From contig JACQVC010000350.1 in NCBI GenBank assembly GCA_016209995.1, positions 1 through 10,890 of the forward strand: a DNA stretch of 10,890 nt, read 5' to 3'. This stretch comes from Gemmatimonadota bacterium. GTDB lineage: Bacteria > Gemmatimonadota > Gemmatimonadetes > Longimicrobiales > Gaopeijiaceae. Positions 4,647-8,957 of the stretch are shown here, in pieces. The notes under the pieces were generated by a model, which ran no database searches, was not told the DNA's origin, and worked only from the letters and a program-made list of their open reading frames with translations. Made by a program: the position numbers and the translations under genes. Numbering within the stretch: the first letter of the stretch is position 1; each line of letters begins with the position of its first letter.

Positions 4647-4703
4647 CCTTCACTGACCTGCGCGATCCGTGGCCAACCGAAGCGAAGCGAAGGTCAGCGA
4701 AGG
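4647..4703 (+). promoter_or_regulatory. Long-range stem-loop in the leader of the response regulator gene
   Basis: CCTTCACTGACCT (4647-4659) pairs with AGGTCAGCGAAGG (4691-4703) at 12 of 13 positions, with one A-C mismatch and a 31-base loop. The downstream arm lies inside the 80-base repeat, whereas the upstream arm is unique to this locus: the second repeat copy at 7413 has no such partner. If formed in RNA it would place a stem just ahead of the purine-rich ribosome-binding region. The existence of the pairing is seen directly; a regulatory role is inferred. Confidence 0.4.
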
Positions 4704-4754
4704 GGAAGGGAGATGGGTGGGAGGAGGGAAGGAAGGGGGAGGTGTGGGAGCTAA
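4675..4754 (+). repeat. 80-base direct repeat, copy 1 (leader and start of the response regulator gene)
   Basis: Aligned without gaps to 7413-7492, this stretch is identical at 69 of 80 bases. The first 32 bases differ once, the last 16 (GAGGTGTGGGAGCTAA) are identical, and the purine-rich centre accounts for the other ten differences. It contains the ribosome-binding tract and ends three codons after the GTG start at 4744. Its reading frame is open and continuous with the response regulator, encoding NRSEAKVSEGEGR then a Gly-rich stretch. Copy 2 sits in exactly the same position relative to an unrelated gene. Confidence 0.9.
4715..4739 (+). promoter_or_regulatory. Canonical G-quadruplex motif over the ribosome-binding region
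   Basis: Four runs of at least three G (4715-4717, 4719-4721, 4726-4728, 4735-4739) are separated by loops of 1, 4 and 6 bases. This satisfies the G3+N1-7 rule on the coding strand and therefore in the mRNA. Further G runs at 4702-4705, 4708-4710 and 4746-4748 give alternative foldings. The motif ends five bases before the GTG start at 4744 and covers all plausible Shine-Dalgarno sequence for it, so folding could hide the ribosome-binding site. Confidence 0.5.
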
Positions 4755-6108
4755 GATCCTGATCGTTGACGACGAAGCCAGCATCCAGGAGGCTTTGCGT
4801 CAGCTCTTCGAGTACGAGGAGCACCGTGTCGCCGTAGCCGCCTCGGCGAAGGAGGCGTTCGCGCTGCTGGAGAGTTTTACTCCAGATGCCATCTTCCTCG
4901 ACGTCAAGATGCCGGAGATGGACGGCCTCGAGGCGCTGACGCGAATCCGCGAGCACGATCCGCACGTACCCGTCGTCATGATCAGCGGACACGGGACCAT
5001 CGATACGGCCGTCGACGCGACTCGCCGGGGCGCGTTCGACTTCCTGGAGAAGCCGCTGGACTCCGATCGCCTGCGGGTCGTGCTGCGCAACGCGCTGGCG
5101 CTGCGCGGCCTCTCCGCCGATGTGGCCAGGCTTCGCGATGAGGTGCAGGAACGCTACGAGATCGTGGGTGCCTCCTTCCAGATTCGTCAGGTCCTCGAAC
5201 GCGTCGAGAAAGTGGCACCCACCGATGCTCGCGTACTCATCGTCGGGGAGAACGGAACTGGGAAGGAACTCGTGGCACGGGCGATCCACCGCCTGTCGCG
5301 GCGAGCCCAGAGCCCGTTCGTCGAGGTGAACTGCGCCGCGATCCCAGCCGAGCTGATCGAATCGGAGCTGTTCGGCCACATCAAGGGCTCCTTCACGGGG
5401 GCCGTCTCCGACCGTGCCGGGAAGTTCGAGCAGGCCAAGGGAGGAACTCTGTTCCTCGACGAGGTCGGCGACATGTCGGCCGCTACGCAAGCCAAGGTGC
5501 TGCGGGCGCTCGAGGAAGGAGTCGTCACGCGCGTGGGCGGCTCGAAGCCCGTGCACGTCGACACGCGGGTCATCGCGGCCACGAACAAGAATCTTCTCGA
5601 GGAGATCGGCGCTGGGCGCTTCCGCGAGGACCTCTACTACCGCCTGAATGTGGTGCCCATTCACGTCCCGCCGCTGCGCGAGCGCCGGGAAGACATCCCG
5701 ATGCTCGTGCAACACTTCGAACACCGACTCTGCCAGCGTGATGGGCTTCCCCCGAAAAGATTCTCGGAGGAGGCCATCGAGTGGCTGCGCCGCTCCGACT
5801 GGCCGGGCAACGTGCGGGAGCTGCGCAATACCATTGAGCGCCTGATGATCCTGGCGCCCAGCCCGGTCATTGACGTGGGGACGGTGCGCATGCTGCTGGC
5901 CGATCGCGGCGGCACCGCCGCGTTGGCCGCCGATCTCCTCTCCGCCGAAACGTTCAGCGATTTCAAGGAGCGCGCGGAGCGGGCGTTCATTCTCCACAAA
6001 CTCCGCGAAAACGACTGGAACGTCTCCGAGACGGCCCGTCGCGTCGACATGCCGCGGTCCAATCTCTACAAGAAGATCGAGCGGTATGGACTGGCGAGGG
6101 AGGAGTAG
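4744..6108 (+). CDS. Sigma-54-dependent response regulator (NtrC/NtrX family)
   Basis: A 454-aa three-domain regulator. The receiver domain (1-120) begins KILIVDDE with phospho-acceptor Asp53 in FLDVKMPEMDG and a C-terminal EKPL lysine. The AAA+ sigma-54 activation domain (about 145-385) has Walker A GENGTGK (168-174), a GSFTGA loop (215-220; a Ser variant of GAFTGA), Walker B GGTLFLDEVGDM and the arginine-finger region FREDLYYRLNV. A Fis-type helix-turn-helix ends the protein (NVSETARRVDMPRSNLYKKIERYGL). Phosphorylation by a histidine kinase would let it activate sigma-54 promoters; neither partner gene is in the window. The GTG at 4744 is chosen because it gives MGAKILIVDDE, the normal family start. 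A GTG at 4717 and one at 4669 are in frame and would add a Gly-rich tail encoded by the 80-base repeat. The domain order suits NtrX, but exact orthology is unproven. Confidence 0.93.
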   Translation: MGAKILIVDDEASIQEALRQLFEYEEHRVAVAASAKEAFALLESFTPDAIFLDVKMPEMDGLEALTRIREHDPHVPVVMISGHGTIDTAVDATRRGAFDFLEKPLDSDRLRVVLRNALALRGLSADVARLRDEVQERYEIVGASFQIRQVLERVEKVAPTDARVLIVGENGTGKELVARAIHRLSRRAQSPFVEVNCAAIPAELIESELFGHIKGSFTGAVSDRAGKFEQAKGGTLFLDEVGDMSAATQAKVLRALEEGVVTRVGGSKPVHVDTRVIAATNKNLLEEIGAGRFREDLYYRLNVVPIHVPPLRERREDIPMLVQHFEHRLCQRDGLPPKRFSEEAIEWLRRSDWPGNVRELRNTIERLMILAPSPVIDVGTVRMLLADRGGTAALAADLLSAETFSDFKERAERAFILHKLRENDWNVSETARRVDMPRSNLYKKIERYGLAREE

Positions 6109-6119
6109 CGAATCGCTAC
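6105..6119. terminator. Palindromic stem-loop spanning both convergent stop codons
   Basis: GTAGCG (6105-6110) and CGCTAC (6114-6119) are a perfect 6-bp inverted repeat around AAT. The TAG stop of the response regulator (6106-6108) and the TAG stop of the metalloprotease on the other strand (6116-6118) sit in mirrored positions in the two arms, so either transcript would end in the same small hairpin. There is no T-tract on either side, so termination is plausible but unproven. Confidence 0.4.
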
Positions 6120-6961
6120 CTCACGATGAGCGCTCCGTTGGTCAGGCGGTAGAGAGCCTCGACCGTGCGATAGTCGCGCACGGACAAGCTCCGGGCGGTG
6201 TTCGTGGGGAACATGACGTCTTCGGGAGAGTCGCTGTGCGGGAGCCCGAGCGCATGTCCCATCTCGTGCGCGGCGGTGAGCTGGAGCTGATCGCGGGACG
6301 GGTAGCTGCCGCGGCCCGTGCGCAAGGACAGCAGAAAGCTCGGCACACGGAAGATGATCTGGCCATCCCGATTCTCCCACTCGTAGCGTGCTTGCCCGAG
6401 GATCTGCCCGCCCAAATCGGGCACCCACTCGATCACGATATCGGCGGGCGTCGCGACGGACCGTTCACTGATGATCAGCTCACTCGGGTGTCCGCTCCAG
6501 GCCATGAGCCCCGACACCGCCGCACTGCGCAGCTCCCGAGCCAGGCTGGCCGGCTCCACGGCCGGGAGCGGCACGTGGATGCGAAGGGGAAACGCGCTCT
6601 CGGGCCAGCGAACCACGACCAGCGAATCCTGAGACTCGAGCGTCTGACAGAGGTAGCCACTATTCCTGCACGTCTCGGACGCCGACAGTCGTGCCGACGG
6701 CTGCCTCGAGGCGGACTGCGCCGTCGAGACGCCCGTAAGCTCTCCGACGGCCTCGAACCCGTCACAGCCCTGCGTGCCGGGGATGCCGCACTCGCCTGTG
6801 GGCGCCGGGGCGCGGCTGAGCTCTTCGTCCATGCGAGCGCGGCCGGCGCGCGAACGTTGGGAGAGCCAGATCATGGTTCCGGTGCTCAGGATCAGGATGA
6901 CGAGAAGACTGGTCGGGGACAGGCGGCCCCAACGGTCCCAGGCGGGCTTGCGTTCCTGCAT
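6116..6961 (-). CDS. Membrane-anchored matrixin-type (M10-like) zinc metalloprotease
   Basis: A 281-aa protein read on the minus strand from the ATG at 6961-6959, with GAGG about eight bases upstream. A short basic N-terminus is followed by a hydrophobic helix at about 17-33 (TSLLVILILSTGTMIWL), giving a type-II membrane anchor with the protease outside. A low-complexity linker with four Cys (CGIPGTQGC, CRNSGYLC) may be held by disulfides. The catalytic domain has HEMGHALGLPHS (zinc-binding His232, His236, His242; Glu233) and a Met-turn at Met250 in DVMFP, with His-to-Met spacing equal to that of matrix metalloproteases. The upstream FPLRIHVPLP strand and VSGLMAWSG helix fit the fold. No cysteine-switch propeptide is obvious. 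It probably cleaves an envelope or extracellular protein, but the substrate is unknown. It is convergent with the response regulator gene. Confidence 0.88.
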   Translation of the reverse strand: MQERKPAWDRWGRLSPTSLLVILILSTGTMIWLSQRSRAGRARMDEELSRAPAPTGECGIPGTQGCDGFEAVGELTGVSTAQSASRQPSARLSASETCRNSGYLCQTLESQDSLVVVRWPESAFPLRIHVPLPAVEPASLARELRSAAVSGLMAWSGHPSELIISERSVATPADIVIEWVPDLGGQILGQARYEWENRDGQIIFRVPSFLLSLRTGRGSYPSRDQLQLTAAHEMGHALGLPHSDSPEDVMFPTNTARSLSVRDYRTVEALYRLTNGALIVR

Positions 6962-6999
6962 CGGATCGCCTCGTGCGTTTCTTTTTGTTCTCCCTGTAG

Positions 7000-7029
7000 T
7001 TGAAAGCTAGGCGCGCCGAGCGACATAGG
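7000..7029 (+). promoter_or_regulatory. Weak sigma-70-like promoter candidate ahead of the small membrane protein
   Basis: TTGAAA (7000-7005) matches the -35 consensus at 5 of 6. CATAGG (7024-7029) follows after an 18-base spacer and matches the -10 box at only 3 of 6. It is in the 138-base gap between divergent genes, and the remainder of the gap holds an A-rich run (AAGGAAAAAAG, 7031-7041). It is a low-confidence call; no clear minus-strand promoter for the metalloprotease was found in the same gap. Confidence 0.25.
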
Positions 7030-7099
7030 GAAGGAAAAAAGTGACCGGATTCTGCCTCACGGTGATCCTTCAGCGAGCTGCTGGATAGCACCGGCGACG

Positions 7100-7285
7100 A
7101 TGGACGCGAGGTCGTATCTGGTCATGGTGGCTCTCTGGGCCGCGTCCGCCGCCATCTCCGGCGCCGTTCTGGCCGGCATGGCGAAGCGCACGCATCCCGC
7201 GCTCTCCTTCAGGCGACTGTGGGTCTTCTACTCGGCGCTCGTCGGAGTCTTCGTCGCCATCGTGCTCTTCAGCGGTTGGTTTTAG
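7100..7285 (+). CDS. Small two-helix membrane protein, unknown function
   Basis: A 61-aa ORF from the ATG at 7100 to the TAG at 7285. Two hydrophobic segments are separated by a basic, polar loop: YLVMVALWAASAAISGAVLAG (about 6-26), then KRTHPALSFRR, then LWVFYSALVGVFVAIVLFSGW (about 40-60). Positive charges in the loop suggest that both termini face the outside and the loop the cytoplasm. It fills an otherwise empty gap between divergent genes, which supports it being real. Against it, no strong Shine-Dalgarno sequence precedes the ATG, and the protein matches no family I recognise. It could be a small envelope or stress-associated protein, but no function is claimed. Confidence 0.6.
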   Translation: MDARSYLVMVALWAASAAISGAVLAGMAKRTHPALSFRRLWVFYSALVGVFVAIVLFSGWF

Positions 7286-7336
7286 TAGTGGGTGCCCTTG
7301 ACCATGGCTACGCGACGCGGCGAAGTTCTTCCAGTA

Positions 7337-7364
7337 ACGTGCGTGCGCGCGCGTGGCGTGTGCG
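7337..7364. other. Alternating purine-pyrimidine tract (Z-DNA-prone)
   Basis: Bases 7337-7355 alternate purine and pyrimidine without a break (including GCGCGCGCG), and after one phase shift the alternation continues to 7364. Such tracts can adopt Z-DNA under negative supercoiling. It lies about 100 bases upstream of the aldehyde dehydrogenase start in the 169-base gap 7286-7454. That gap otherwise holds a lone TTGACC (7298-7303) without a matching -10 box, and the second copy of the 80-base repeat. Confidence 0.4.
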
Positions 7365-7412
7365 GCGGGCGAGTGGACGGCGGAAGTGCGACGGATGCCT
7401 GAGCGACATAAG

Positions 7413-7492
7413 AACCGTAGCGAAGCGAAGGTCAGCGAAGGGGAGGTGAGAGGGATGGGAGGAGGAGAGGCGAGGCGAGGTGTGGGAGCTAA
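7413..7492 (+). repeat. 80-base direct repeat, copy 2 (leader and start of the aldehyde dehydrogenase gene)
   Basis: This is the partner of 4675-4754: 69/80 identical without gaps, at the same distance from the start codon, and again open in the reading frame of the gene that follows. Its conserved 3' block GAGGTGTGGGAGCTAA supplies the possible GTG start at 7482 and the codons for Met-Gly-Ala. The central purine tract here holds GGAGGTGA (7442-7449), an excellent Shine-Dalgarno sequence, and an in-frame ATG at 7455. It lacks the closely spaced GGG runs that give copy 1 its quadruplex motif. Confidence 0.9.
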
Positions 7493-8957
7493 CTTCATCG
7501 GCGGTGCTTGGGTCGAGCCGCTGGCTGGCCGATACTTCGAGAACCGCAACCCGGCGAGGCGCGACGATCTGATCGGGGTCTGGCCGCGCTCCGACGCGGC
7601 GGATGTCGAAGCTGCGGTCGAGTCCGCCGGGCGAGGATTCGAGATCTGGCGCAGCACGCCGGCGCCGGCCCGCGGTGACGTCATCAGGCGGGCCGGTGAT
7701 CTACTCGCGAAGCGCAAGGAGGAGATTGCAGCGATCGCGACTCGCGAAATGGGCAAGACCCTCGTCGAAACCCGCGGCGACGTGCAGGAGGGCATTGACA
7801 CGGCGTATTACGCGGCTTCGGAAGGCCGCCGTCTCTTCGGACGCACGGTGCCTTCCGAGCTTCCGAACAAATGGGCGATGTCTTTTCGTCGACCCATCGG
7901 CGTCTGTGGCCTCATCACGCCGTTCAACTTCCCTCTGGCCATCCCCACCTGGAAGGCGTTCCCGGCGCTCGTGTGCGGCAATAGCGTGATTCTCAAACCT
8001 GCCGAGGACGTGCCGCATACGGCCAGCGTGTTCGTCGAGATCCTTCTGGAGGCGGGTCTGCCCCCCGAAGTGATTCAGCTCGTGCACGGGTTCGGTGAGG
8101 AGGTCGGGGCCGCCCTGGTCGCTCACCCGAGGATCCCGGTCATCTCATTCACCGGGTCGAGCGAGACGGGACGAGCCATTGCAGAAATCGGGGGTCGGCT
8201 GTACAAGCGCGTTTCTCTCGAGATGGGCGGCAAGAACGCGCAGATCGTGCTGCCCGACGCTCGCCTCGATCTCGCTCTCGACGGAGTACTTTGGGGCGCA
8301 TTTGGCACCACGGGGCAACGTTGCACCGCCACATCCCGTCTACTCCTACACGAGGACATCGAGGAAGAGTTCGTTTCCCGCTTGGTGGAGCGAGCCGGGC
8401 GCCTCCGTCTGGGCGACGGGATGAATCCCCAAACCGACGTGGGTCCGCTCATCAACAGCGCCGCACTGGAGAAGGTCGAACGCTACGTCGACCTCGCCCA
8501 CACGGAAGGTGAGGTGGTTTGCGGGGGGCGCCGTGCGTGTGACGGTGAGCTCGCACACGGCTTCTTCTTCGAACCGACGGTCGTCCGCGGTGTGGCTGCG
8601 GGTGCCAGGATCGCCACGGAAGAGATCTTCGGTCCGGTCCTCAGCGTCATGACGTTCGCCGACTTCGCTGAAGCCGTGCGGATCAACAACGAGGTGCGCT
8701 ACGGACTATCCAGCTCGGTCTACACGCGCGACGCGGAGATCGCGTTCCGGGCCGCGAACGAGCTGGAAACCGGCATCACCTACGTCAACGCGCCCACGAT
8801 CGGCGCGGAAGCCCACCTTCCGTTCGGGGGGCTGAAGGATACGGGAAACGGCCACCGCGAAGGCGGCTGGGAAGTCTATGACTTCTACACCGAGACGAAG
8901 GTAGCCTACGTGGATTACTCGGGCCGCTTGCAACGGGCGCAGATCGACAACTACTGA
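7455..8957 (+). CDS. Aldehyde dehydrogenase family protein (NAD(P)-dependent)
   Basis: A 500-aa ALDH-superfamily enzyme that should oxidise an aldehyde to the acid with NAD(P)+. The catalytic set is complete: Asn158 in TPFNFPLA, general base Glu256 in SLEMGGKN and nucleophile Cys290 in GQRCTATSR. The cofactor-site LKPAED and FTGSSETGR are also present, as are the C-terminal EIFGPVLSV and [27 protein letters not shown] and the tail [16 protein letters not shown] recall semialdehyde dehydrogenases of the ALDH7/ketoglutarate-semialdehyde type, but the substrate cannot be fixed from sequence. The ATG at 7455 is chosen for its near-perfect Shine-Dalgarno (GGAGGTGA, five bases away). The GTG at 7482, which gives [10 protein letters not shown], is equally good by protein homology; both lie inside the 80-base repeat. 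lepB follows after 20 bases. Confidence 0.93.

Follow-up and report, generated by a model that had tools for sequence, protein, structure and literature searches.

Why two genes of unrelated function should carry nearly the same sequence at their 5' ends is the question raised by a 10,890-nucleotide contig of a Gemmatimonadota bacterium, which, in its full length, we call the window. Positions 4675-4754 and 7413-7492 of the window are identical at 69 of 80 positions without gaps, and both stretches encode the peptide NRSEAKVSEGE, as an earlier note on this DNA had described. The note took the repeat for an 80-base leader module preceding a response-regulator gene and an aldehyde dehydrogenase gene. 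In the present study, we examined the repeat in the source genome and in relatives, and we consider it probable that it is a short non-autonomous mobile repeat, tolerated at gene starts by means of its reading frame and its own start codon.

The repeat itself stands, but its unit is 78 bp long, as the final AA of each 80-base stretch belongs to the host site (AAG ATC and AAC TTC). The first copy (4675..4752, forward strand; 26 codons), recognized by identity to the second, by a profile match, and by element-free relatives, lies after codon 2 of the gene for an NtrC-type response regulator (4669..6108, forward strand; Response_reg, Sigma54_activat, and HTH_8), which is interrupted near its 5' end and whose original start is GTG 4669. 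The second copy (7413..7490, forward strand; 26 codons), with a clean empty site in the relative sequence L097, sits behind the sixth codon of a gene for an aldehyde dehydrogenase (7395..8957, forward strand; Aldedh, 1.4e-165), whose original start is ATG 7395. Because the gene starts lie upstream of the repeat, it interrupts both genes rather than preceding them. The two starts noted earlier in each copy are indeed present in the frame of the gene, 12 and 3 codons before the end of the element: GTG 4717..4719 and the candidate start GTG 4744..4746 in the first copy, and ATG 7455..7457 and the candidate start GTG 7482..7484 in the second (all on the forward strand). The 3' end GTGGGAGCTAA is common to both copies.

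The corresponding genes of relatives lack the element. In L097, the aldehyde dehydrogenase reads MAPERHK/NFI (the slash marks the junction), whereas the window protein reads MPERHK[26 residues]NFI; the DNA of L097 is ATG GCC CCG GAG CGA CAC AAG AAT TTC ATC, against ATG CCT GAG CGA CAT AAG, 78 bp, AAC TTC ATC in the window. The response-regulator gene of L108 begins TTG GCA AAG CTT CTG, against GTG GCC, 78 bp, AAG ATC CTG in the window. Among the best 120 homologues of the dehydrogenase listed, 118 are 491-502 residues long, and the two longer ones have unrelated N-termini. Residues 1-42 of the response regulator gave no match at E values up to 10 in the protein database (proteins of about 263-838 residues; 6 candidates), and within that range no further protein carrying the tag was found.

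The source assembly (G000) is a fragmented metagenome-assembled genome of 3,004,677 bases in 556 contigs and is 76% complete. Queries around either window copy gave 45 matches in it, with identities to the window copies down to 78-81%. When up to 3 mismatches were allowed, 52 places carried the 22-base 5' core (0 for the reversed control); with up to 2 mismatches, 44 places carried the 15-base 3' core (7 for the control). The repetition in the source genome is far beyond chance. Sixty contigs were fetched besides the window, 48 with matches and 12 arbitrary, and a profile search of these contigs and the window gave 55 element matches at E 0.01, of which two, L078 and L081, score weakly and could have arisen by chance. 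No profile match at E 0.01 was obtained in the 12 arbitrary contigs or in 17 further contigs (101,860 bases). In the source genome, the repeat is thus neither confined to the two window copies nor placed at random; the many copies, their strong clustering at gene starts, and their coding-compatible placement bear out the earlier proposal of a dispersed, apparently mobile module, and the 3' end GTG GGA GCT was, as proposed, fixed across the genome copies.

The unit is sharply bounded. It consists of AACCGTAGCGAAGCGAAGGTCAGCGAAGGGG, a variable purine-rich tract, and GTGTGGGAGCT, and the 78-bp form runs AACCG...GGGAGCT, with a consensus open in frame over 26 codons. Complete units span 51-79 bp; the 34 full-length units comprise 22 of 78 bp, 10 of 79 bp, and one each of 75 and 77 bp. 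In the 78-bp units, heterozygosity is 0.048 in the 5' 31 bases and 0.072 in the last 14 bases, against 0.265 in the middle. Tandem copies occur on contigs C101, C443, C400, C66, and C139. The encoded peptide was rejected as the conserved unit, as the length variants stay in frame with the 3' end and not with the 5' peptide. A very short form of the 5' core is located directly before an ATG on contig C322 (L079:2290-2313) and could serve as a ribosome-binding stretch.

We sorted the sites at gene starts and at 3' ends by hand. For seventeen copies at gene starts, the contig includes the old start; we omitted copies that are truncated at a contig end or have no clear old start (L043 and the gmk copy, for example) and counted L048 (ROK) despite its probably chimeric left flank. 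The families of pgk, dnaB, sdhA, gmhA-like, inositol monophosphatase, luxC, coxB-like, mrp, and lpxD were assigned from searches, and era, pssA, psd, pdhA, purD, panB, pdxA, ROK, PhoH, VOC, and gmk are names that we presume from the translated sequences. The closest relative sampled, G401 (about 4.1 Mb), is 78% identical in the dehydrogenase. When the flanks of a copy were joined, 20 of 25 such segments matched G401 (pgk, L043, L067, L076, and L077 did not). For 13 of the 17 gene-start copies, G401 has an ortholog with an element-free start region, and the alignment crosses the junction in 8 of these and begins at or after it in 5. The G401 genes begin ATG CAC GTG GAT (coxB-like), GTG GAA AGC TAC (sdhA), GTG AAC GAG CGA (dnaB), ATG AGG GAG (gmhA-like), and ATG ACG TTC (luxC). 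Element-free counterparts also exist in G401 for the copies in the VOC, pdhA, and purD genes; the VOC-type protein is split mid-domain and in frame (LFQVP[26 residues]NMAFFDC), and the relative has LFQVPKMAFFDC.

Left flanks were compared for 15 copies, and 12 match the same relative locus: those at luxC, the coxB-like gene, the gmhA-like gene, mrp, sdhA, lpxD, dnaB, the inositol-monophosphatase gene, and pssA, together with VOC, pdhA, and purD, where both flanks belong to the same gene. Of the other three, L038 gave a weak match, and era (with a short flank) and ROK gave none. On contigs C465 and C22, removal of the unit leaves a perfect 12-bp hairpin, CCCCACGCAACG-AAM-CGTTGCGTGGGG (junctions read by eye). 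Judged from these comparisons, the element is an insertion inside genes and not a leader; the empty sites of relatives lie inside 5' gene ends, and copies at 3' ends, between genes, and mid-gene also contradict the leader reading. In a separate intergenic inverted-repeat family (ggtCCCCACGCAAC...GTTGCGTGGGGtaggga; L057:59-140, L063:4288-4369, and the end of L075), three copies harbor the element, two of them complete and the third truncated where its contig ends.

Where the element lands is not arbitrary. Eight of the 17 gene-start copies stand directly after the start codon and five follow codon 2; the other four follow codons 3, 6, 8, and 15, respectively. The start codon agrees with that of the relative in six of the eight; of the remaining two, ROK is doubtful (its flank is probably chimeric, and the start in the relative lies four codons further upstream), and L077 has no match in the relative. 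Other copies occur close to the 3' ends of genes, namely pdhA, purD, and, judged from the translated sequences, panB, pdxA, and psd. At L065:1096-1275 (reverse strand), two insertions are adjacent: a psd-like gene carries one at its 3' end, and the next, pssA-like gene carries the other in its 5' end.

For the flanking bases, we used 39 independent flanks, leaving out duplicates and tandem copies; the tandem filter also dropped L048, L051-63, and L080, and L060 was lost because of its short flank. The base after the 3' junction is A in 95% of the 39 junctions, against 16.5% of the fetched contigs. TG precedes the 5' junction in 13 of 39 flanks, against 5.2% of the fetched contigs (p 5e-8), and DTG precedes the element in 12. 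Many insertion sites other than start codons are used. TG also precedes 5 of the 19 sites sorted as not being gene starts (p 0.0025; five unclassified sites, L043, L056, L068, L078, and L081, were omitted); therefore, the preference seems to reside partly in the target site and presumably partly results from selection. Insertion is in phase 0 at all 17 gene starts, against 3 of 7 sites at 3' ends (Fisher p 0.003), and this holds when the codon-1 cases are excluded (9 of 9, p 0.02).

In 10 of the 17 gene-start copies, the old start still reads into the gene, and in seven the gene is cut off from it. Six of the seven are 79-bp units (in the gmhA-like gene, sdhA, ROK, the gene on C288, dnaB, and inositol monophosphatase); the seventh, at pgk, is a 75-bp unit with a stop and adjoins the C-terminus of glyceraldehyde-3-phosphate dehydrogenase. 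Because all seven cut-off genes retain a GTG or ATG in their frame, three codons short of the junction, we infer that they begin inside the element; dnaB and pgk have no other in-frame start once the last stop is passed. At five of the six gene starts with a 79-bp unit, the old start leads into a short open reading frame of the element (mini-ORF), whose TAA lies two bases past the element and overlaps the new start (GTGGGAGCTAA).

An explanation covering these features would run as follows. A repeat of 78-79 bp would insert before an A-rich site, often DTG/A (where a gene starts or where a stop and a start overlap), and no target DNA is visibly lost; the movement would presumably be driven by an enzyme. 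The element would be tolerated at gene starts for two reasons. Most full-length copies are 78 bp, or 26 codons, and a gene holding such a copy can still be read from its old start with a 26-residue insert. In addition, the 3' end of the element carries a tract rich in purines and, three codons from the junction, a GTG or ATG at which the gene could start afresh; this codon is in phase with any insertion at a codon boundary. In the 79-bp copies, the overlap of the mini-ORF terminator with the new start is a layout that would suit translational coupling.

Several results weigh against this explanation. No mobilizing enzyme was identified in the source assembly, nor was a larger copy with the same ends (AACCGTAGCG and GTGGGAGCT) found. 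A search of the 76% complete G000 for a Y1 (HUH) transposase was negative, and 5 of 14 control genomes were positive; a Y1 transposase was therefore rejected as the mobilizer. The contigs carrying the group II intron-like reverse transcriptase and the IS110-type transposases contain no copy of the element at E 0.01. The ends (AACCGTAG.../...GGGAGCT) form no terminal inverted repeats, and no target duplication was found beyond the A or AAC shared at the site. The start three codons before the junction also occurs in 8 of the 10 gene-start copies that are in frame and is therefore not special to the cut-off genes, and among the 45 units that reach 50 bp, 8, including the lpxD copy, have no start codon there. 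The tract 5' of the GTG pairs with the 16S tail only slightly better than shuffled sequences (-13.4 vs -11.5 kcal/mol). Contig C341 is probably chimeric at the repeat; the ROK case is therefore doubtful, and a single true start site may underlie both this case and that of C288.

Two genes of the source genome were considered in this connection: a reverse transcriptase (PF00078) resembling a group II intron maturase at L225:600-1973 (reverse strand), and an IS110-type transposase, a possible mobilizer, at L226:329-1591 (reverse strand). On the contigs of these types, weak element matches were found on L226 (E 0.19, chance level) and L241 (E 5.7).

Rickettsia palindromic elements (RPEs) are short repeats that lie in frame inside unrelated protein-coding genes (PMC10969869). 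A parasite of coding sequence that behaved in this manner would survive only as an open insert of 26 codons, always translated from the old start, with the in-element GTG unused; the 10 of 17 gene-start copies that read through in frame, the mid-domain copy in VOC, and the C-terminal copy in pdhA, which also reads through, would all fit. However, the other seven copies, dnaB, pgk, sdhA, and gmhA being among the genes concerned, are unreadable from the old start, and the insertions crowd at codons 1-2 with a fixed phase at gene starts. We regard this explanation as unlikely. RPEs themselves are palindromic and about 150 bp long; the present element is 78 bp, favors gene starts, and is not palindromic, its fold being weaker than that of shuffled sequences (z-scores +1.29 and +1.46). 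The same z-scores ruled out a hairpin or palindrome in the element and revealed no stable fold, and a scan of the window against Rfam gave no known RNA.

Shared regulation of the two window genes, as the earlier note had suggested, found no support. A translation-control leader acting through the purine tract and possibly a G-quadruplex, and co-regulating the genes that it marks, would account for the many copies at 5' ends and for the 5' core and 3' end being far more conserved than the middle. However, the marked genes are functionally unrelated, copies also occur at 3' ends, mid-gene, and in the intergenic hairpin, no stable fold was found, and the G-quadruplex motif (13 of 34 copies, against 39% of shuffles) is not enriched, so that G-quadruplex regulation was rejected; such a leader is improbable. 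Even less credence is due to an assembly artefact, in which misassembly driven by the repeat, or contaminant sequence, would have produced many of the joins. Many copies do lie at contig ends, and C341 joins a PhoH-like gene to the ROK gene, while synteny places that left flank (L048) before the C288 gene (L060), whose locus in G401 it matches at 90%. However, at 12 of the 15 sites compared, both flanks come from one gene or a conserved neighborhood, which contradicts an artefact for the syntenic sites; identity to the window copies falls as low as 78-81% among the matches; and ends lying in frame at start codons are not expected from assembly errors. A mobile repeat tolerated at gene starts remains our preferred explanation.

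Among known systems, the mycobacterial interspersed repetitive units (MIRUs) seem closest. MIRUs are 40-100 bp long and occupy 41 locations, with 77- and 53-bp units in tandem (PMC2734929, PMC4213456), and a 2025 review describes them as apparently mobile elements that insert at start codons and contain an ORF of their own; coupling of this ORF to the gene, at -4 nt, likely limits the impact on expression (PMC12548453). The present element resembles them as a dispersed repeat in tens of loci, some in tandem (55 matches, 51-79 bp), and in its insertion at start codons (8 of 17 directly after the start codon, six of them matching the relative's start, and DTG in 12 of 39 flanks). MIRU insertion was reportedly placed at DTGA by Supply et al. 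in 1997. Unlike the -4 nt coupling given in the review, the mini-ORF of five of six 79-bp copies overlaps the new GTG or ATG by 11 nt (GTGGGAGCTAA); most full-length copies are 78 bp, with the old start in frame, giving a fusion; the element also occurs mid-gene and at 3' ends; and the host belongs to a different phylum. By size and placement, it looks like a MIRU-like element with different geometry rather than a MIRU.

Other systems are more distant. Repetitive extragenic palindromes with their associated transposases (REP/RAYT) and miniature inverted-repeat transposable elements (MITEs) are likewise small, non-autonomous dispersed repeats. However, the present element has no stable hairpin, and no Y1 transposase was found in G000, in contrast to REP/RAYT; unlike a MITE, it is without terminal inverted repeats and shares only A or AAC at the site. 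Byps, the mobile bypassing elements of yeast mitochondria, are short inserts inside coding genes; here, there is no sign of ribosome hopping; the consensus has an open frame, and a length of exactly 78 bp is found in 22 of the 34 full-length copies.

The element was found in none of 38 relatives; a pattern search allowing up to 2 mismatches gave no copy in 394 further genomes from the phylum (a set overlapping the 38), and an exact-pattern search of IMG/VR was likewise negative. A search for a comparable repeat family in 635 kb of G401 (depth of at least 4 required; 4 of 40 stretches with BLAST warnings) was negative. G401 holds an unrelated repeat of about 120 bp (L264:7-125, with matches on L263, L277, L279, L261, and L255). 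Literature searches, in part naming the phylum, gave no report of such an element in Gemmatimonadota among the top entries. Between the two interrupted genes of the window lies a gene for a matrixin-like metalloprotease (PF00413; 6116-6961, reverse strand) with an N-terminal hydrophobic segment.

A bolder proposal, to which we give somewhat less than even weight, is that the element is a mobile start codon: it would target translation starts, put a ribosome-binding tract and start codon of its own in place of those of the host gene, and have spread through essential genes of a non-mycobacterial host, so that start-codon parasitism of the MIRU type would have evolved more than once. To our knowledge, what is known of MIRU movement, and of whether start codons are truly targeted, comes from mycobacteria. 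An element of similar kind but other geometry in an environmental phylum, together with empty sites in relatives, would allow the choice of target and the principle of 'bring your own start' to be tested in harmless hosts. Such genomes are also prone to mis-annotation of gene starts, and new protein N-termini might arise naturally from the element.

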